From IMG/VR virus record IMGVR_UViG_3300049847_000717, positions 1 to 26,138 of that record: a DNA stretch of 26,138 nt; one strand, given 5' to 3'. Of the stretch, positions 8,893-16,019 are shown in pieces; position 1 is the first letter of the stretch, and each line of letters begins with the position of its first letter. The notes under the pieces were generated by a model. The model was given only the letters and a program-made list of their open reading frames with translations, was not told where the DNA came from and ran no database searches. This DNA comes from a virus. The translations under genes were made by a program, and so were the position numbers.

Positions 8893-9273
8893 ATGGGCAA
8901 CGTAGCAAACTTACAACCACAAAAATCGGGTGAACCGTCCAAAAACCCGAATGGTCGCCCGAAAGGCTCGCGTAATCGCTCGACGATTCTCAAGAAATGG
9001 TTGTCCGTCAAAACTTTAATCAAGCATCCGATTACGAAAGAAGACATCAAAGTAACGGTCGAGGACGAAGTAGTTTTATCGCTGATAAAAGAAGCTCGAA
9101 AAGGCGATGTCCGGGCGATCCGTGAAATTCTCGACACGATGTATGGCAAGATCACGGAGAAAACGGAATTGACCGGCGCGGACGGCGCACCGATCAAACA
9201 CAACGTAATCGGCGAAGTTTCATTTCTGATTAACGAGATTTACAGTGATGACAGCGAATCCGGCACTGATTAA
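8893..9273 (+). CDS. terS: Terminase small subunit-like protein (DUF5681 type)
   Basis: A 126-residue basic protein. Residues 10-30 contain the motif KSGEPSKNPNGRPKGSRNRS, the marker of DUF5681, a family usually encoded directly before a large terminase and taken as a small-terminase or DNA-recognition protein. A helical middle (KEARKGDVRAIREILDTMYG) and an acidic end follow. Its last 26 bases overlap the start of the large terminase in another frame, so translation is coupled. It would recognise phage DNA and present it to the packaging motor. The function is inferred from the motif and position. Confidence 0.75.
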   Translation: MGNVANLQPQKSGEPSKNPNGRPKGSRNRSTILKKWLSVKTLIKHPITKEDIKVTVEDEVVLSLIKEARKGDVRAIREILDTMYGKITEKTELTGADGAPIKHNVIGEVSFLINEIYSDDSESGTD

Positions 9274-11644
9274 ATTTATCAATCTCGCTCACGCGGCACG
9301 TCTTCCGAAAAGTTCACTCGAAAGATTTTTGTCGGCGGGTTATGTTCCGCAACCACGGCAACTTGAATTTCACGCCGCCGCCCGCGAATCCGATCATAAT
9401 GAATTATTAACAGAAATTTGCTACGGCGGGGCGCGTGGCGGCGGCAAAACCCATTGCATTTTTGCCGGTGTTTCGATAGATGATTGTCAAATGTTCCCGG
9501 AACTGAATGTTTTATTTTTGCGAAAAAAAGCGGGTTCGGCTGAGGAAAGCGTTGATAATTTGACGCGCCGGATCTTGAGGAACATCGCGCATAAAACAAC
9601 GCGCGGATTGGTTAAATTCGCAAACGATTCAAGAATAAAAATCGGACATTTTCAATATGAAAAAGATATTGACCAATATCTGTCGCTCGAATACGATTGC
9701 ATTATTATCGAGCAAGCCGAACAACTGACGCCCGCCAAACTGATAGATATTCTTTCGGTCAACCGAACATCACGATCCGATTATAAACCGCGAATGTATT
9801 ACTCGCTCAACTGGGGCGGCGTCGGTCACGCATATTTGAAAAAGAAATTTTATTTGCCTTATCTTGAAAACAGAGAAATTGAAACGCGATTTATACCGGC
9901 GACGGTTTATGATAATCGCAAAATAAATAAAGGCTATTTAAAAAATCTTGAACAGCTTGTCGGCTGGAAGCGTAAAGCATGGCTCGAAGGTTCGCCCGAC
10001 ATTGCCGCCGGACAATTTTTTACGAATTTCAATTCGGCAATTCACATTTTGCCGCCCGAAAATATTCCGTTTATGCGCTATGCTCAATTTTGGTGCGCAT
10101 TGGATTACGGCTACGGTCATTATACTGTTTGCTATTTGCTGATGAAATCAGACGGCAAAATTTATGTTTTAGCCGAACATGCCGACCGCAAACAGCCGGT
10201 TTCTTACCACGCGGAAATGATTCACGCTTTACTTGCCCGCTTTGATCTGACGGTTGACGATCTGACGGATTTCGTTGCCGGAACCGATGTTTTCGCGCAG
10301 CGCGGCGCGCGGGATGCGGAAACGATCGCCGATCAATACGAGGAATGCGGCATCAGACTGACCGAAGCGAATACCGACAGGATAAACGGCGCGGCAATGA
10401 TTCTCAAACTTCTCGGCGATGCGGAATTAAACATCGAACCGAAACTTTTCATTTCTTCAAACTGCGCTTATCTGATCGAGTGTTTGCCAACGCTTGAACA
10501 CGACCCGAAACGCCCGGAAGATGTAAAAAAAGTTGACACGGACGAAAACGGCAACGGCGGTGATGATGCTTACGATTGTTTTGTTGCTGGAACTTTAATT
10601 ACCACAATCAGGGGACAAAAACCGATTGAGCAAATCAAAATCGGTGAATTGGTTTTAACGCGAGAAGGTTTCAAACCTGTTTTGTCGAGTTGGAAAAAAC
10701 GAAAACTTCATACGGTTTTGAAGGCTGAGTTTTCGGATGGAACGCAGATAACAGCAACGCCGAATCACCCGCTTTGGTTGGAAGAAAAAGGTTTTACTTA
10801 TCTTGACTCGTTGCGATACGGTGATATAATAAATACTATATGGCAAAACAAGTATTATCAGAAACAATTGAATTCAATGGCATCAAATTCAGACGTTATC
10901 CAAACTCTACAAAATCCAACCATAGACGCTATTACAGTCCGGGCGGCAACCATATTAAACGAGGTGTGCAATCATTACACATTGAAATATGGAAGTCAGT
11001 TCACGGTGAAATTCCTAAAGGCTCTCAAATTCACCATAAAGACGGAAATCCGCTCAATAATTCAATCGAAAATTTGGAATGTCTTACTCCAAAAGAACAT
11101 AGTCAGGAACATTTTTCTAAAACTGAGCGACTTACAAACGCGCGAAAACACATTGAAACAATCAGACCTTTGTCATCTGCTTGGCATTCATCAATTAAAG
11201 GGCGCGAATGGCATTCCAAACACGGAAAAGAAGTTTTTGGAAACAGACCGCAAGTTTCAAAATCTTGTGAACAATGCGGCGCAAATTATTCTACAAAAGT
11301 TCCATATAAATCCCGTTTTTGCTCAAATAAATGTAAATCCAAATGGCGGCGCGATAATAAAACCGACAATGTTATTAAACAATGCGAACGATGTAAAAAG
11401 GAATTTTCGTCAAATAAATACGAAGATTTCCGATTTTGCTCAAAAATCTGTTCAGCCCGTTCGACTGCATTCTTTAGCCGAGAACGGCAAATCTGACGTT
11501 TTCGCTCTTTTTGTTGCTGATTGTCACGAATATTATGCAAACGGAATTCTCGTTAAAAATTGTTTGCGATACGGGCTAATGGTTAATATTTCAACCTATG
11601 ACGCGCCCGAAAGCGGAACACCCTACGACAGTTATTTTCAATAA
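9248..11644 (+). CDS. terL: Terminase large subunit interrupted by an intein
   Basis: A 798-residue precursor; the spliced protein would be 470 residues, a normal terminase size. The ATPase has Walker A G60-GARGGGKT68 and a Walker B-like CIIIEQAEQL around residues 151-160, where EQ replaces the usual DE. The nuclease domain shows D286 (CALDYGYG), D347 (AGTDVFA) and D443 (DDAYD), the spacing expected for the RNase H-like fold. The intein follows D443 directly, and the C-extein resumes with CLRYGL, so the joined sequence DDAYDCLRYGL matches the usual D-x-x-R-Y-G end of terminases. The ATG at 9248 is preferred; a GTG directly before it (9245) is possible. The protein packages DNA into proheads. 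Until splicing occurs its nuclease centre should be disrupted. Confidence 0.9.
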   Translation: MTANPALIKFINLAHAARLPKSSLERFLSAGYVPQPRQLEFHAAARESDHNELLTEICYGGARGGGKTHCIFAGVSIDDCQMFPELNVLFLRKKAGSAEESVDNLTRRILRNIAHKTTRGLVKFANDSRIKIGHFQYEKDIDQYLSLEYDCIIIEQAEQLTPAKLIDILSVNRTSRSDYKPRMYYSLNWGGVGHAYLKKKFYLPYLENREIETRFIPATVYDNRKINKGYLKNLEQLVGWKRKAWLEGSPDIAAGQFFTNFNSAIHILPPENIPFMRYAQFWCALDYGYGHYTVCYLLMKSDGKIYVLAEHADRKQPVSYHAEMIHALLARFDLTVDDLTDFVAGTDVFAQRGARDAETIADQYEECGIRLTEANTDRINGAAMILKLLGDAELNIEPKLFISSNCAYLIECLPTLEHDPKRPEDVKKVDTDENGNGGDDAYDCFVAGTLITTIRGQKPIEQIKIGELVLTREGFKPVLSSWKKRKLHTVLKAEFSDGTQITATPNHPLWLEEKGFTYLDSLRYGDIINTIWQNKYYQKQLNSMASNSDVIQTLQNPTIDAITVRAATILNEVCNHYTLKYGSQFTVKFLKALKFTIKTEIRSIIQSKIWNVLLQKNIVRNIFLKLSDLQTRENTLKQSDLCHLLGIHQLKGANGIPNTEKKFLETDRKFQNLVNNAAQIILQKFHINPVFAQINVNPNGGAIIKPTMLLNNANDVKRNFRQINTKISDFAQKSVQPVRLHSLAENGKSDVFALFVADCHEYYANGILVKNCLRYGLMVNISTYDAPESGTPYDSYFQ
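10803..10830 (+). promoter_or_regulatory. Predicted sigma70-type promoter inside the intein
   Basis: TTGACT at 10803-10808 (five of six consensus bases), a 16-base spacer, and a perfect TATAAT at 10825-10830 preceded by TG at 10822-10823 as an extended -10. Transcription would begin about 10836-10838, two to four bases before the ATG of the HNH gene. The sequence also encodes the conserved LDSLRYGD part of intein block B, so coding and promoter functions overlap. Activity is inferred from consensus only. Confidence 0.6.
10840..11496 (+). CDS. HNH homing endonuclease encoded out of frame inside the intein
   Basis: A 218-residue protein in a frame shifted against the terminase/intein frame. 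The HNH core at residues 47-91 has the pattern H-x2-I-W then GEIPKGSQIHHKDGNPLNN, IENLE and H87, with catalytic candidates H65/H66, D68, N70 and N78. It is typical of HNH_3-type homing nucleases. Residues 20-45 (YYSPGGNHIKRG) resemble the short DNA-binding lead segments of such enzymes. Two Cys4 zinc ribbons follow: C143/C146/C161/C165 and C182/C185/C200/C204. No good SD precedes the ATG, but a promoter ends ten bases upstream, so a near-leaderless message is likely. It stops just before intein block F. It would cut intein-free terminase alleles and so drive intein spread; that target is inferred. Confidence 0.85.
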   Translation: MAKQVLSETIEFNGIKFRRYPNSTKSNHRRYYSPGGNHIKRGVQSLHIEIWKSVHGEIPKGSQIHHKDGNPLNNSIENLECLTPKEHSQEHFSKTERLTNARKHIETIRPLSSAWHSSIKGREWHSKHGKEVFGNRPQVSKSCEQCGANYSTKVPYKSRFCSNKCKSKWRRDNKTDNVIKQCERCKKEFSSNKYEDFRFCSKICSARSTAFFSRERQI

Positions 11645-11649
11645 TCTGC

Positions 11650-11671
11650 AAAAATAATTCAAAAATAATTC
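11650..11671. repeat. Tandem 11-bp direct repeat after terL
   Basis: AAAAATAATTC occurs twice in a row, beginning six bases after the terminase stop, in an A+T-rich intergenic stretch. Its role is unknown; it may be a binding site or simple slippage. Confidence 0.5.
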
Positions 11672-11701
11672 GTTTATTTTAAGTTTTAGCCTGTTTTTAA
11701 C

Positions 11702-11730
11702 TTGCAATAATAATATATCTATGTAATAAT
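11702..11730 (+). promoter_or_regulatory. Predicted promoter for the small-gene block
   Basis: TTGCAA at 11702-11707, a 17-base spacer and AATAAT at 11725-11730 preceded by TGT, an extended -10 layout. It lies in the 131-base gap after the terminase gene and would start transcription near 11737. A short hairpin TACTC/GAGTA (11737-11751) and a good SD (CGGAGAG) follow before the ATG at 11776. Both hexamers deviate from consensus, so confidence is moderate. Confidence 0.45.
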
Positions 11731-11775
11731 TAGTCATACTCTAAATGAGTAAATAAAAAAACGGAGAGTAAAACA

Positions 11776-12234
11776 ATGAAAAGTTACGCATATTATCAGG
11801 AAAATGAAATGGTGCGGGAAGCTGGTTTGGCGATGGGTTTGGGGAACCACACAAAATATGAAAAAAATCAAAAAGTATTAATTGCCGAAATCGGCGGCGC
11901 ACAGTTTTTTTATGAAGTGCAAGCCAATAATGAAAAGGCTATTGTGATGAAAGAAAGTGGTTGCGATGCGCGAATCATTGCTCCAAGTGTGCCGCGATTT
12001 TCCGGTAATGAAGTGCCGGAAAATACTTACATTAAAACAGGCAAAGAAACTTGGGATAAACCACCGCTGGAATGTGTGAATTTGCCGGTTTCTTATTCTG
12101 ATGCATGCCAGATTGCCGAAGCCAAATTGGTAAGATTAGGCGATTCGGTGAAAGTTTCAATTGAAAGTGAATCAATTGAAAGTGAAGATGAAGATAATAC
12201 GCCTTACTTCAAAGGAGATGAGTTAGTTTTTTAA
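11776..12234 (+). CDS. Unknown acidic protein, first gene of the small-gene block
   Basis: A 152-residue protein with a good SD (GGAGAG) nine bases before the ATG. The first 40 residues are helical with Gly/Met (MGLGNHTKYEKN). The middle has beta-like segments (KVLIAEIGGAQFFYEVQ, then CDARIIAPSVPRF), and the end is very acidic (SIESESIESEDEDN). Two exact copies of a 15-base unit at 12157-12186 encode the SIESE repeats, a recent slippage event. It is the first gene behind the predicted promoter at 11702. I do not recognise a family and there is no signal peptide or membrane helix. Confidence 0.65.
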   Translation: MKSYAYYQENEMVREAGLAMGLGNHTKYEKNQKVLIAEIGGAQFFYEVQANNEKAIVMKESGCDARIIAPSVPRFSGNEVPENTYIKTGKETWDKPPLECVNLPVSYSDACQIAEAKLVRLGDSVKVSIESESIESEDEDNTPYFKGDELVF

Positions 12235-12284
12235 GCGAGAACGGGCGCAAATGTCCAAAACCGAATTTTTGGATAAATTACGAA

Positions 12285-12392
12285 ATGAAATTTCAAGGCA
12301 ATTTTAATAAATCAACCCGCGCAGACATCGCTTGCTTTATCGGCGCGATTCTGTTCGGGATTCTGGCGGAGATTTTAGCGAGGTTTTTATGA
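12285..12392 (+). CDS. Mini-membrane protein, copy 1 of a paralogous pair
   Basis: Thirty-five residues: a short basic lead (MKFQGNFNKSTRAD), one hydrophobic helix (IACFIGAILFGILAEIL) and the end ARFL. The same pattern occurs in the 36-residue product at 13100: R-[AT]-D-[IV]-A-C-F, then a helix, then L-[AT]-R-F-L at the stop. That conservation supports both as real genes although each is short and the SD here is weak. The stop overlaps the next ATG (ATGA at 12389). An 18-codon frame at 12251 overlaps in a different frame and is less convincing. Function is unknown; a holin-like, toxin-like or membrane-signal role is possible. Confidence 0.6.
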   Translation: MKFQGNFNKSTRADIACFIGAILFGILAEILARFL

Positions 12393-12628
12393 AAGAAGAA
12401 ATAGACGACATCATTCAAGAAATAAAAAAGAAACGAAAAGTTGTCAGTTCGTCGGACAATTATTCTGAAACCGAATGGCAAGCGATTGATTCATACAATC
12501 TCGGATTGACCGAAGCGATTGAAATTATCGAACGAAGAAATGCTAAAGATGATAAAGGTTGTCAATTTGATGGCTTTTATCAATCGGTTCTCAGCGAGCC
12601 GGACGAAGATTTTATGATGGGGCTTTAG
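12389..12628 (+). CDS. Small unknown helical protein
   Basis: Seventy-nine residues beginning with a charged helix (MKEEIDDIIQEIKKKRK), then SETEWQAIDSYNLGLTEAIEIIERR and an acidic end (SEPDEDFMMGL). The start at 12389 is chosen because it overlaps the stop of the mini-membrane gene (ATGA). The frame is open further upstream, but that part would run through the mini-gene. The pattern is that of a soluble helical protein. No family is recognised. Confidence 0.6.
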   Translation: MKEEIDDIIQEIKKKRKVVSSSDNYSETEWQAIDSYNLGLTEAIEIIERRNAKDDKGCQFDGFYQSVLSEPDEDFMMGL

Positions 12629-12631
12629 ATT

Positions 12632-12850
12632 ATGGCATCAACAACAAAAGCAAACTTGGAAGCGACTTACGGAGTGCCGGTTTATGTCCGTTGGCACCTT
12701 GTTCCGACCGACCTTCATCCGCGTAGTTGGTATGCCGATAAAGGTGTTAAAATTCCTAAATCAGCAAAACCCGATGCGGTCAAAGGTGGTGGTCAAAAGA
12801 TGGGAAAATCCCGAATAACATTTTTGTTTCGGGAATCAAAATGGTTATGA
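12632..12850 (+). CDS. Small unknown basic protein
   Basis: Seventy-two residues, basic and rich in Lys, Trp and Gly, with the segment YVRWHLVPTDLHPRSWYADKG and a C-terminal KSRITFLFRESKWL. It starts three bases after the previous stop, and its own stop overlaps the next ATG (ATGA at 12847). No membrane helix or known motif is visible. It belongs to the same co-transcribed block, and its function is unknown. Confidence 0.55.
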   Translation: MASTTKANLEATYGVPVYVRWHLVPTDLHPRSWYADKGVKIPKSAKPDAVKGGGQKMGKSRITFLFRESKWL

Positions 12851-12861
12851 AGATTAAGGAA
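12843..12861 (+). repeat. 19-bp direct repeat, copy 1, at a gene start
   Basis: GGTTATGAAGATTAAGGAA covers the start codon and first codons of the coiled-coil gene. The identical sequence recurs at 13096-13114 over the next start. The two genes then diverge, so this is a shared initiation segment only. Confidence 0.85.
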
Positions 12862-13095
12862 ATAGATAAAATAATTGCTGAACGTGACAAATGGAAACGC
12901 AGAGCAAAACTGTTTCAGGAAGCATATCGAGACGCAGATTTTCGCGCTCTTGCTTTAGAAATTCAAAAAATGCAATTGGAAGCACTGGGCACAGATAAAG
13001 TTACAGCAATGCAAAATAAACATTTACTTAAAAAACTAATATCAGTATGCGTAGAACGCAACGAATTAGCCGCTAGGCTGAAAAAGTATGAGTAA
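12847..13095 (+). CDS. Small coiled-coil protein
   Basis: Eighty-two residues, almost entirely helical and charged (KIIAERDKWKRRAKLFQEAY, later ERNELAARLKKYE), consistent with a coiled coil. The start at 12847 (ATGA overlap) is preferred to the in-frame ATG at 12841. The first codons lie in a 19-base sequence that is repeated exactly at the start of the gene at 13100. Function is unknown. Confidence 0.6.
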   Translation: MKIKEIDKIIAERDKWKRRAKLFQEAYRDADFRALALEIQKMQLEALGTDKVTAMQNKHLLKKLISVCVERNELAARLKKYE

Positions 13096-13114
13096 GGTTA
13101 TGAAGATTAAGGAA
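13096..13114 (+). repeat. 19-bp direct repeat, copy 2, at a gene start
   Basis: This is an exact copy of 12843-12861, again placing ATGAAGATTAAG at a gene start, 253 bases from the first copy. It suggests a local duplication or recombination between neighbouring small genes. Confidence 0.85.
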
Positions 13115-13210
13115 TTTATCAAGGTCTGCCCTTCCCGAACGGACGTTGCGTGCTTTAGCGCGGCGGTTGGGCTGGCAATTTTAGTTTGGATCTTGACGAG
13201 GTTTTTATAA
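13100..13210 (+). CDS. Mini-membrane protein, copy 2 of a paralogous pair
   Basis: Thirty-six residues: MKIKEFIKVCPSRTD, a hydrophobic helix (VACFSAAVGLAILVWIL) and the end TRFL. It matches the product at 12285 in R-T/A-D, V/I-A-C-F and the final RFL, and both genes end in the same DNA word CGAGGTTTTTAT. The first 15 bases are shared with the coiled-coil gene start at 12847, so the gene looks like a mosaic of two neighbours. It starts five bases after the previous stop. Function is unknown. Confidence 0.6.
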   Translation: MKIKEFIKVCPSRTDVACFSAAVGLAILVWILTRFL

Positions 13211-13215
13211 GCATA

Positions 13216-13407
13216 ATGGCAAAACTTGAATGTATAAAATGCAAAGAATATATCTATATTCCGAGAGCAGAACGCAACAAGGACGAGGAAATAGAATATA
13301 AATCATTCTGTTCTACGCATCAAGATCTTCCGTGTTATGTATGTTGGAAGTATCTCACAATAGAAGAAACAGATAAAATATTGGATGAAGAAATTTTAGA
13401 ATATTAA
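13216..13407 (+). CDS. Small zinc-ribbon protein
   Basis: Sixty-three residues with a four-cysteine layout: C-x2-C near the start (CIKCKEY), then FCSTHQ and CYVCW, the second C-x2-C. This would bind one zinc ion in a ribbon fold, with a possible extra Cys/His ligand. The C-terminus is acidic (IEETDKILDEEILEY). The ATG at 13216 gives the compact domain; the same frame is open back to 13186 but without an SD. It could bind nucleic acid or protein. No named family is assigned. Confidence 0.6.
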   Translation: MAKLECIKCKEYIYIPRAERNKDEEIEYKSFCSTHQDLPCYVCWKYLTIEETDKILDEEILEY

Positions 13408-13409
13408 TT

Positions 13410-13757
13410 ATGGCTATTGATATAGAAGGTCTAATAACTTATGAGGAATTTGACAATGAAAAAGGGAAATTCGTTAAAAAATTTCCACAACAAAAAGTTG
13501 AAATTATGAAAAACAAACTTGAATTAGAATCAATAATGATTGAGGGCATATTACCGATCTCGCAAATCTTTGCCCGCATCGGCGAGAAACTTTACCCGGT
13601 AACAGACGTTGAAAAAGCGGTCGGCGGCGGCAATTTGATCTTTACGGTCAATTACAAGCCGGGCAGACCTTTCAAATATGCTTCGGATAACGAACGCCGG
13701 GCGGCAAAACGAGAGTCTTGGAAAAAGGCGAATGCGCGGCGGAAAAAAGTAAAATAG
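13410..13757 (+). CDS. Small unknown protein with basic tail
   Basis: A 115-residue protein with an acidic and hydrophobic first two-thirds (IEGLITYEEFDNEKG, later YPVTDVEKAVGGGNLIFTV) and a strongly basic end (KPGRPFKYASDNERRAAKR, then KKANARRKKVK) that could contact nucleic acid. It starts two bases after the zinc-ribbon stop. No domain is recognised. The last ~70 residues have the GGC/GCG-rich codon style of the structural genes, unlike the A+T-rich first part. Confidence 0.6.
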   Translation: MAIDIEGLITYEEFDNEKGKFVKKFPQQKVEIMKNKLELESIMIEGILPISQIFARIGEKLYPVTDVEKAVGGGNLIFTVNYKPGRPFKYASDNERRAAKRESWKKANARRKKVK

Positions 13758-13820
13758 GGCAAACTTACCGAAACCGCGACGGGCAAACAATAGCGGTAAA
13801 ATAAAATTGAGGTAAAAACT

Positions 13821-14114
13821 ATGGAAAACGAATATAAAAAGCTATTTTCTATTGATGAAATTAGTAAAGAAATAGCGAGCGCTATTGAGGCACATCAAAA
13901 CGGGCAGGAAATTGATTGGGGCAAGGCTTACAATCAATGGACGGACGAAAATGGAAATCATACCCTAAAAAAGGGTGTGATTTATTTTGATAACTCCCTT
14001 ACAGGAGAAATTATTGATCTCATTAAAGAAGGTGAAGTTGTTGATGTCGCCAAATTGGCGCAGAAAAAACTGGACACAAGGCTTTCCAACTATTCTAAAA
14101 CCATTAGATTATAA
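13821..14114 (+). CDS. Small unknown acidic protein, last gene before a terminator
   Basis: Ninety-seven residues, helical and acidic (SIDEISKEIASAIEAHQNG, later EIIDLIKEGEVVDVAKLAQ). GAGGTAAAAACT gives a reasonable SD before the ATG. A strong hairpin terminator begins 26 bases after its stop, so it closes the transcription unit that starts near 11737. No family is recognised. Confidence 0.65.
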   Translation: MENEYKKLFSIDEISKEIASAIEAHQNGQEIDWGKAYNQWTDENGNHTLKKGVIYFDNSLTGEIIDLIKEGEVVDVAKLAQKKLDTRLSNYSKTIRL

Positions 14115-14139
14115 AGCCACAAATTCTCAAATAATTTCA

Positions 14140-14174
14140 AAAAGCCTCAGAGTAACATCTGAGGCTTTTCTTTT
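14140..14174 (+). terminator. Intrinsic terminator, probably bidirectional
   Basis: A perfect 12-bp stem AAAAGCCTCAGA/TCTGAGGCTTTT with a 6-base loop (14152-14157), followed by CTTTT. The A-run on the left gives the mirror signal on the other strand. It ends the small-gene block. Confidence 0.85.
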
Positions 14175-14211
14175 GTACTGGAAGCGTTAAAGCGCGAATT
14201 GTTAAAAATAA

Positions 14212-14481
14212 ATGAAATACGAAATCACATCAAAACTCGAAACTGTGCCCGGACATGGGTTGAAAGAAATTGAATATAAAGGCGTAAAACATTATATTCT
14301 CAAGACCGATTTCGGCTATTTTATCGAGTCAAGATTAATTCCGACGACTATGAGTTTTTCGGAAATTCAAGAATTGAAAAATAAAATCAAATATGATTTT
14401 GAGGTTGAAAAATTTATTTCTCTTAATGATATTAGCAGAATGGTTTTTATCGTATTAAAAGATAAAATTAATGATGATTAA
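14212..14481 (+). CDS. Small unknown protein between terminator and promoter
   Basis: Eighty-nine residues with a beta-like first half (KYEITSKLETVPGHGLKEIE, then HYILKTDFGYFIESRLIP) and a helical second half. It lies alone between the terminator at 14140 and the predicted promoter at 14491, with no SD and no obvious promoter of its own. It may be read from leak-through or be leaderless. The gene is A+T-rich. No family is recognised. Confidence 0.5.
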   Translation: MKYEITSKLETVPGHGLKEIEYKGVKHYILKTDFGYFIESRLIPTTMSFSEIQELKNKIKYDFEVEKFISLNDISRMVFIVLKDKINDD

Positions 14482-14490
14482 ACTATTTAA

Positions 14491-14519
14491 TTGACAACCC
14501 GCTTAAAATAAACTATTTT
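14491..14519 (+). promoter_or_regulatory. Predicted sigma70-type promoter before the head operon
   Basis: A perfect TTGACA at 14491-14496, an ideal 17-base spacer, and TATTTT at 14514-14519. The start of transcription would fall near 14525, exactly where the first arm of the closing stem of the structured RNA begins. It is one of the two best promoter matches in the window. Confidence 0.65.
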
Positions 14520-14522
14520 TAA

Positions 14523-14634
14523 GTTGAAAATCCAGTTGCGCTTTGCCCGAATTAAAGGCGCAAAACAAAGGCGACGACCATCGCTTAAGAAAAGCTGAAA
14601 GGCAATTCTTAAGCGATGGTTTTTTATTTTCAAC
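14523..14634 (+). ncRNA. Candidate structured RNA (three-stem) upstream of the portal gene
   Basis: Three helices can be drawn by eye. The closing stem pairs GTTGAAAAT (14523-14531) with ATTTTCAAC (14626-14634). The first inner hairpin pairs TTGCGC and TTT (14536-14544) with AAA and GCGCAA (14554-14563), with one bulged G and a 9-base loop. The second inner hairpin is a perfect 15-bp stem (14577-14591 with 14606-14620) and a 14-base loop, followed by a T-run. A predicted promoter starts transcription at its 5' end. It could be a stand-alone small RNA or an attenuating leader of the portal operon. It matches no RNA family known to me. Confidence 0.5.
14577..14630 (+). terminator. Intrinsic terminator or attenuator before the portal gene
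   Basis: A perfect 15-bp stem (ACCATCGCTTAAGAA with its complement at 14606-14620) followed by six T, A and four T. This is the strongest terminator-like hairpin in the window, yet it ends only ten bases before the portal ATG at 14640, so head-gene transcription must read through it or be controlled by it. Confidence 0.75.
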
Positions 14635-14639
14635 CTAAA

Positions 14640-16019
14640 ATGGCGCGAACCGCGAAAAAAATCACACCCGACTATCAGGACGAATCGGTTTCGACCGGGC
14701 GGATAATGTTCACTTCGCAATCTTTGCCGCAAAATCCGCGCGATGAAAACTTTCTAAAGCTCGATCTAAAATCGCTCGAATGGATGCGGGCAGACCCGGA
14801 AACACACGCCGCGATTGAATTTTTGCTTGACGCGATGCTGTCAGACGGAATTGAAACCGTCGGCGCGGTCTTTGAATCAGACCCGAATTTTGCCGAAGCG
14901 GAAGAATACGCCCGCTTTATTCGCTGCCAGTTCCACGAAACTTGCAAAACATTCAATCGTTCTTACAAAGAATTACTGCGCGGCGCGTTCACGTTCGGGC
15001 ATAAAGTCGGCGAAATTGTTTGCCGACTTCAAACCGAAGGCGAGGACGCCGGGCGGCTGGTTTTAGATCGCATCAAACCAAAACCGAACCGTTCGACCGC
15101 TTTTGTCGTGGATGAATTTTTCAACGTCCTCGGTCTCGTCGGCGTCCGGCGCGGGCAAACCGCCATCACGACCGGGCAGATCGCGCCCGAAAACGTCATT
15201 CCGACGGAAAAGTTTCTGATTCCGCGTTTTGAAGAAAAAGACGCCGATCCGCGCGGTGTGCCGCAAATTCGCGCCGCCTTTGATTCTGTCTGCGATAAAT
15301 CGGAAACGCGCCAGCAATTCAAGATCTGGCGCAAAAAATGTTCAATCCGTTCATTTATCGCAATGGCTGGCGAAAACGCCAAACCGATTCAAATCAAAAA
15401 TACCGACGATACGATCAAACTTGATTCAAACGGCGTGCCGGTCACGAAAACGCCGCTCAAAGCGATCTCGGAAACTCTCTCAAATATGCAAAACGATACG
15501 GTTGCTGCCTTCAATCACGGCACGACGATCGAGCCACTTGAATCGGACGGCACGGGCGAACAGTTCGAGCGCAGTTATAAAATAAATAATCAGGAAATCC
15601 GCAAGGCTATTTTGTTGCAATCCGGCGCGACAGGCGAAGCCGACAAGGGCGGTCTCGGCAAGGCGGGCAAAGAAGTTGACGAACGCGTATTGAATCGCCG
15701 CGTCAATTCATTCCGGCGCGACCGCGAAAAGGAACTTTATCAACTGGCGCGGACGTTGATTGCGCTGAATTTCGGCGCGGATAAAGCCTATTTAACGCCG
15801 TCAATCACTCTGGGCGATGCTGAAAAATCGGACTTTTCAGCACTTTTGGCGGCTTACGGTTCGGTCGGTTACGCGCTCGACAGCTCGCAATTCCCTGAAA
15901 TTGACACCGATCTCGGATTACCGAAACGCGACGCGCAAAACACGGCGGAAAATTTAGATCAAGGACAAAATGCCGCCGCCGCCAATCAGCAAACCGATCA
16001 AAATCAGGGGGCGACATAA
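14640..16019 (+). CDS. Portal protein (DUF935 / Mu gp29-like)
   Basis: A 459-residue protein. The opening MARTAKKITPDYQDE and the segment DPETHAAIEFLLDAMLSDGI resemble the start of Mu gp29-type portal proteins. Later parts include LLRGAFTFGHKVGEIV, the Pro/Lys-rich DRIKPKPN, and QSGATGEADKGGLGKAGKEV before a helical region, as expected for a portal wing, stem and crown. It forms the ring at one capsid vertex through which DNA passes. The ATG at 14640 has no SD; an ATG at 14616 lies inside the terminator stem and is rejected, and a later ATG at 14706 has GGGCGGA upstream and remains possible. The stop overlaps the next start (TAATG). It opens the head operon. Confidence 0.8.
   Translation: MARTAKKITPDYQDESVSTGRIMFTSQSLPQNPRDENFLKLDLKSLEWMRADPETHAAIEFLLDAMLSDGIETVGAVFESDPNFAEAEEYARFIRCQFHETCKTFNRSYKELLRGAFTFGHKVGEIVCRLQTEGEDAGRLVLDRIKPKPNRSTAFVVDEFFNVLGLVGVRRGQTAITTGQIAPENVIPTEKFLIPRFEEKDADPRGVPQIRAAFDSVCDKSETRQQFKIWRKKCSIRSFIAMAGENAKPIQIKNTDDTIKLDSNGVPVTKTPLKAISETLSNMQNDTVAAFNHGTTIEPLESDGTGEQFERSYKINNQEIRKAILLQSGATGEADKGGLGKAGKEVDERVLNRRVNSFRRDREKELYQLARTLIALNFGADKAYLTPSITLGDAEKSDFSALLAAYGSVGYALDSSQFPEIDTDLGLPKRDAQNTAENLDQGQNAAAANQQTDQNQGAT

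Follow-up and report, generated by a model that had tools for sequence, protein, structure and literature searches.

The combination of a promoter, a nearby terminator and a factor is a design in use, as lambda Q, AlpA and GafZ illustrate (PMC6606751, PMC11150451). Com of phage Mu is a translational activator, of mom, and it reportedly recognizes CC(N)2-3GAG within a hairpin loop that a C-G pair closes (PMC6483171). According to a 2018 review, com-like genes are found ahead of bacteriocin genes and, in certain strains, ahead of the lytic enzyme in the lysis cassettes of tailocins; their general role was still to be explored (PMC6240691). In the open-licence papers on Com, Com-like families, late antitermination leaders, put and structured RNA near portal genes that were searched, the leader described below does not appear. 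The anatomy of this leader, its recurrence, its presence in two copies per genome and its covariation are read directly from the sequences, and from them we infer its transcription, its termination and a regulated read-through.

The window, that is, the whole stretch of DNA that was analyzed, is a virus record of 26,138 bases and is a fragment. The unit lies before the portal protein gene (14640-16019, + strand), which codes for a Mu-type portal (PF06074, 5e-22; phrog_113) and is the first gene of the head operon. The promoter scan bore out the TTGACA with a 17-base spacer of the original prediction: the -35 hexamer TTGACA is at 14491-14496 (+), the -10 hexamer TATTTT is at 14514-14519 (+), the spacer between them is 17 nt, and together the two hexamers agree with the consensus at 10 of 12 positions. 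Relatives have TTGCAA, TTGAAN or TTGACA at the equivalent place of the -35 and TAGAAT, TAGACT, TACATT or TACAGT at that of the -10. Six nt after the -10 is a GAAAAT box (14526-14531, +), recognized by eye among the leaders; GAAAAW follows the -10 at a distance of 6-8 nt, again by eye, in the window, in both prophage copies and in 4/4 lysis copies described below. The box is near the presumed transcription start and is a possible -10-like pause element. The hairpin P1 (14535-14566, +), placed by alignment of the covariance model R2 to the window, has an outer helix GUU/AAC, an inner helix GCGC/GCGC and an AA bulge on the 3' side. The terminator hairpin P2 (14577-14620, +) was found by scan and by folding, and its arms (14577-14591 and 14606-14620) form the perfect 15-bp stem that had been predicted, followed by the T-run TTTTTTATTTT (14620-14630, +; T6 at 14620-14625), which runs into the start region. 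Nucleotide similarity to the acidobacterial prophage in genome G405 is retained in the stretch of T-run, ATTTTCA and ATG. We agree that the portal ATG has no visible SD. The portal frames of the window and of the G405 prophage are open upstream to an in-frame ATG within the terminator hairpin, which in the window is at 14616 (MVFYFQPKMAR...; G405 counterpart MFSRRFAFSPEMAQ...).

The original prediction enclosed these hairpins in a closing stem. Its arms, GTTGAAAAT at 14523-14531 and ATTTTCAAC at 14626-14634 (+), are able to pair, and when extended to 14517-14531 and 14626-14640 they are 93% complementary, but this pairing is specific to the window and is not conserved. Among 14 leaders an unusually long closing helix is the window's own only (P 0.023), the P values of the other 13 being at least 0.127, and the closing stem as functional core was rejected because 13 of the 14 lack an unusually long helix there. 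The second arm is downstream of the T-run, so that a terminated transcript would be without it, and the first arm is better read as the GAAAAT box, which is conserved close to where transcription would start. The distance from the end of the unit to the portal ATG had been given as six bases; the second closing arm stops 5 bases short of the ATG at 14640. The RNA from 14522 to 14637 folds at -45.8 kcal/mol compared with -23.2 +/- 3.2 for 200 shuffles (z -7.2), none of which was as good. The reverse strand of the leader folds equally well (z -7.3), and thus fold energy alone is silent on which strand is used. In the window, promoter-like sites (29 vs 23.1 by chance) are hardly above the chance number and terminator-like sites (27 vs 35.8) are below it, and therefore the weight rests on the comparative evidence.

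Upstream of the leader are the gene of the terminase large subunit with an intein (9245-11644, +) and, by the ORF list, a stretch of small ORFs (11645-14481, +), whereas in many relatives the terminase abuts the leader or the portal directly. A perfect 12-bp bidirectional terminator-like hairpin (14140-14169) lies between two of the small ORFs. Inside the terminase intein and out of frame is an HNH endonuclease (10840-11496, +; PF13392, 8e-17; phrog_15471, 1e-35); the terminase's own frame is open through it and it is flanked by Hint and intein-splicing matches, whereas the out-of-frame HNH insertions described for the ShiLan domain in PMC11855218 are presented there as being without intein splicing domains.

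Direct searches of viral contigs with the window's own peptides, for portal, terminase and capsid, gave no close relatives. The exact terminator pattern was not found in viral contigs, a two-row capsid alignment found nothing in viral and genome contigs, and no phage matched the element or the portal in a search at the nucleotide level. Degenerate DNA patterns, two for capsid motifs and one for a terminase motif, were then made by hand and gave 26, 46, and 35 stretches in viral contigs, some contigs recurring; portal genes were present in 22/27, 25/38, and 3/29 of the records searched per pattern. The same degenerate pattern gave 1 real relative among 37 loci in genome contigs. A portal relative, at 42%, was present in one of 396 genomes from the phylum to which G096 belongs; this is G405, and its acidobacterial prophage has a capsid 79% identical to that of the window, a decoration protein 67%, a protease 48% and a terminase 24% identical. 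The relatives of the window terminase at 40-51% are mostly beside other portal types, which shows that these phages are mosaics, and in contigs with the same terminase family and another portal type no leader was seen at that place on reading. The small ORF at 12632-12850 of the window (...YGVPVYVRWHLVPTDLHPR...) resembles by eye a stretch at about 72336-72572 of G405:C6 (...FGVPVYTGWHLVPKNLHAR...); the window ORF is between terminase and portal and its look-alike is upstream of lysis genes.

In many relatives, both by eye and by scan, a promoter is followed after about 70-160 nt by a strong hairpin with a T-run and then by the portal start. In a count of 42 related portal loci, which left out L003, L142, L086, L088, L133, L135, and L136 as distant or near-duplicates and L076, L081, and L089 as truncated and does not include the G405 prophage, a promoter and a strong terminator were directly before the start in 13; if the terminator is the sole requirement, the number is 16. 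The other 29 of the 42 are without the leader, often because terminase and portal abut. Among 990 control ORFs of at least 150 codons from the larger loci, 105 had a terminator and 16 had both elements, and 11 of these 16 were portal genes, while the other five look incidental.

The covariation alignments were fitted to the structure and did not include the window. With nine copies, 13 of 22 pairs had changed on both sides and 96.7% of the cells were paired, and 0 of 500 shuffles was as high on every measure; with eight copies, 10 of 22 pairs had changed on both sides. Compensatory changes are seen in relatives in both P1 and the terminator stem P2, including both-side changes in 3 of 4 pairs of the P1 outer helix; the inner GCGC helix of P1 hardly varies and is little informative. 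P1 is hardly more stable than its shuffles (mean z -0.55, Stouffer -2.0 over 14 leaders). Covariation in relatives had been proposed as a check on all three stems, and it favors P1 and P2.

With model R1, built from four leader copies, the portal leaders of L131 (E 4e-18) and L134 (2e-11) were added to the set, and the same contigs also yielded second copies (G034, 5e-7; G061, 4e-6; G037, 4e-4; and weakly G051, 0.07). Model R2 was built from nine copies in relatives, with no window or prophage sequence among them, and was run unfiltered. In 76 kb, made up of the window plus 50 kb from G405, its best hit was the portal copy of the prophage (E 4.9e-5), followed by the lysis copy of the prophage (4.3e-4) and the window element (6e-4, 21 bits), with the next hit at 0.041; these E-values are rough. 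Across the 396 genomes R2 gave four hits, all of them unrelated terminators above the 21 bits of the window, and it is thus unspecific at genome scale, so that the place of a hit matters. These four were counted as chance and not as leaders, their flanks being without phage genes, and the G405 prophage copies were not found again in this run because only 10 of the 2082 candidates of that genome were scored. One chance R2 hit, at about 1440-1610 of L216, is by eye in a classic-looking attenuator with a Phe-rich leader peptide and a terminator before a prephenate dehydratase-like gene.

Five genomes have two copies of the leader, one before the portal operon and the other before lysis/terminase genes. 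The second copies carry their own promoter. In 4/4 group-A contigs that cover the region they precede a gene for a small membrane-like protein or another small gene upstream of TerS-TerL, and in the G405 prophage the second copy is before an endolysin gene with peptidoglycan-binding and M15 peptidase domains. The P1 stems of the two G405 copies differ by a paired change, GCCC/GGGC vs GCTC/GAGC, as judged by eye. A portal copy only was found in G024, G055 and the window, which have a shorter upstream reach or a different arrangement; no second copy was found in the window record. The start of the portal leader of L137 (G061) seems by eye to be doubled, with two TAGACT -10-like hexamers and a similar sequence after each.

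Upstream of the lysis copies, and overlapping the promoter, is a small ORF for a zinc ribbon. Three of the four lysis-copy ORFs match a PHROG "translational regulator" (8e-5, 7e-4, 0.007) and the remaining one hardly does; two of the three also match gpCom (0.004, 0.026). The zinc-ribbon ORF of L078/G006, which ends inside the TTGACA of the portal leader, matches gpCom at 2e-6 and Zn_ribbon_Com at 3e-4, the latter below the cut-off. The Pfam cut-off for Com (PF10122) was reached in 0 of 58. Genes that looked Com-like by eye in L141, L150, L071 and the G405 prophage were not confirmed by PHROGs or Pfam. CC-N2/3-GAG hairpins were found in 8 of 20 leaders compared with 0.62 expected, and, the four lysis copies being mutually related and L068 and L139 too, the eight perhaps amount to about four independent cases; the 20 were counted from 22 leaders after the near-duplicates L142 and L087 were taken out, and L074, which the portal-locus count does include, is not among them. 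Profile A7, built from five Com-like proteins, matches 7 of 44 records, five of them by construction. The two new ones, G005 (7e-10) and G031 (5.5e-9), are exactly the two other records with a hairpin in the portal leader, and against PHROG Com their proteins give only 0.11 or no match. Among 16 leader-bearing records, Com and hairpin occur together in seven (5/7 by construction), the hairpin only in one (G024), Com only in none and neither in eight (P 7e-4). This co-occurrence suggests a Com-family RNA-binding regulator in the relatives. In the window, neither PF10122 nor A7 gave a match and the Com motif is absent from the leader, and in G405 we found neither a Com gene nor a Com hairpin, the prophage leaders having no Com motif. 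A small ORF of the window with CxxC...CxxC (13186-13407, +) has no convincing match to Com or another family.

The most likely explanation, to which we give a probability of roughly two in three, is that the unit is the promoter of the late head operon with a leader in which transcription would terminate close to the promoter, similar in logic to lambda pR'-tR'. The late genes probably share it as an on/off gate. Host sigma70 RNA polymerase would start near 14525 and make a short RNA with the GAAAAT box, P1, and P2; that it pauses near the GAAAAT box is speculative. By default it would stop at the P2 terminator, 14-20 bases short of the portal ATG. A factor encoded by the phage would, late in infection, let polymerase pass into the portal, protease, capsid, and tail genes, acting as lambda Q does at pR'-tR'. 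Since in relatives the same leader is also before the lysis/terminase genes, one factor could switch both late operons. The original prediction of an attenuator that has to be overcome for head-gene expression, possibly by a protein bound to the RNA, thus gains support from the recurrence, the duplication and the covariation. In those relatives that have it, Com is the best candidate for the factor; for the relatives alone, we infer that the factor may be or include a Com-like zinc-ribbon protein on the leader hairpin. A fuller version, in which a Com-family protein would read the loop of the duplicated leader RNA and let polymerase past the built-in terminator at both the lysis/terminase and the head operons, the window being a diverged member with factor and loop changed, is tentative and we think it unlikely as a whole.

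The explanation that denies the RNA a role, a sub-case of the preferred reading, is antitermination of the Q/AlpA/GafZ type by a factor bound to promoter DNA, with P1 as mere transcribed spacer. A promoter with a close terminator is the Q arrangement, in which the first part of the transcribed region carries a -10-like sequence (PMC6606751; for GafZ, PMC11150451), and the GAAAAT box, which by eye follows the -10 at 6-8 nt, may be a pause element of this kind. A mere spacer, however, would need neither the both-side changes in three of the four P1 outer-helix pairs nor the Com motif that the P1 loop carries in several relatives, and we regard this explanation as possible but rather unlikely. 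It is improbable, in our view, that the leader is instead a translational switch, the portal start being freed when a Com-like protein attaches to the leader hairpin, in the way Mu Com acts on mom, and the hairpin with its T-run beside the AUG being inhibitory and no terminator. Com activates translation in Mu (PMC6483171), Com-like genes co-occur with Com-type leader hairpins, and the starts come close after P2 without a visible SD. But the portal AUG of the window is outside P2 and adjoins the closing arm without being within it, neither the window nor the prophage leaders have the Com motif, and P2 with its T-run has the shape of a textbook terminator in all scanned leaders that carry them. 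The leader RNA might also modify polymerase itself with no protein needed. HK022 has two put sites, and the present leader, too, occurs twice per genome in relatives. The pair of RNA hairpins that directly follows the promoter is likewise put-like (PMC9378689), yet the conserved leader itself includes the strong terminator, and we regard this explanation as very improbable.

That the unit is a gene for a stand-alone small RNA which is before the portal by chance would agree with its own promoter and terminator, its length of about 100 nt and its strong fold. The original prediction had allowed for such an RNA, but a leader is the likelier reading, since the copies stand directly before the first genes of two different operons, and the distance from T-run to start is short; we consider a stand-alone RNA quite improbable, although a short terminated RNA could arise as a by-product. 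There is equally little probability that P2 is a plain terminator of the upstream genes with a chance promoter, the portal being expressed by leaky read-through. The near-chance number of promoter-like sites in the window and the several relatives without the leader would fit this, but order, sequence, and structure are conserved in relatives. A mobile repeat or MITE was rejected, the record having one copy only and the second match being the hairpin's own other strand. As the original prediction had held, no known RNA family fits: no Rfam family, including phi29 packaging RNA, reached the gathering score in the window or in 7 related stretches, and a packaging RNA is also at odds with the presence of leader copies ahead of lysis genes. 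A retron, considered for its shape, was set aside as no reverse transcriptase was noticed among the window ORFs.

Little is known of late-gene control in phages whose hosts, like the Acidobacteriota, are poorly studied, and the leader, present twice per genome, is a defined element that lends itself to testing. It also offers Com-like proteins a concrete role beyond mom; if this is true, the Com family, so far tied mainly to the translation of single genes, would coordinate both late operons through RNA.

Compared with the described systems, the leader shares with lambda pR'-tR' and Q a sigma70-type promoter, a short leader with a possible -10-like box and an intrinsic terminator, here within about 200 nt of the promoter, before late genes. 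It differs from pR'-tR' in that it has a covarying P1 and a terminator that abuts the portal gene, and in relatives it is repeated at two late operons. With AlpA of the P. aeruginosa alp genes and GafZ of the Caulobacter gene transfer agent it would share a polymerase carried past a downstream terminator before phage-like genes, by a factor that in those systems is thought to load at the promoter; in the gene transfer agent, as PMC11150451 describes it, the terminator is downstream of gtaT, whereas here it is within the leader. In the relatives, as with Mu Com and mom, a small gene for a CxxC...CxxC zinc ribbon is near a leader whose loop carries CC(N)2-3GAG. Unlike mom, however, the leader is before lysis and portal operons, a promoter is between the com-like gene and the leader and the start codon is not inside the hairpin, and the window has neither motif nor gene. 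HK022 put also has RNA hairpins immediately after the promoter that act on downstream termination, as is proposed here, but the present leader serves late and not early operons and the terminator is part of the conserved unit.
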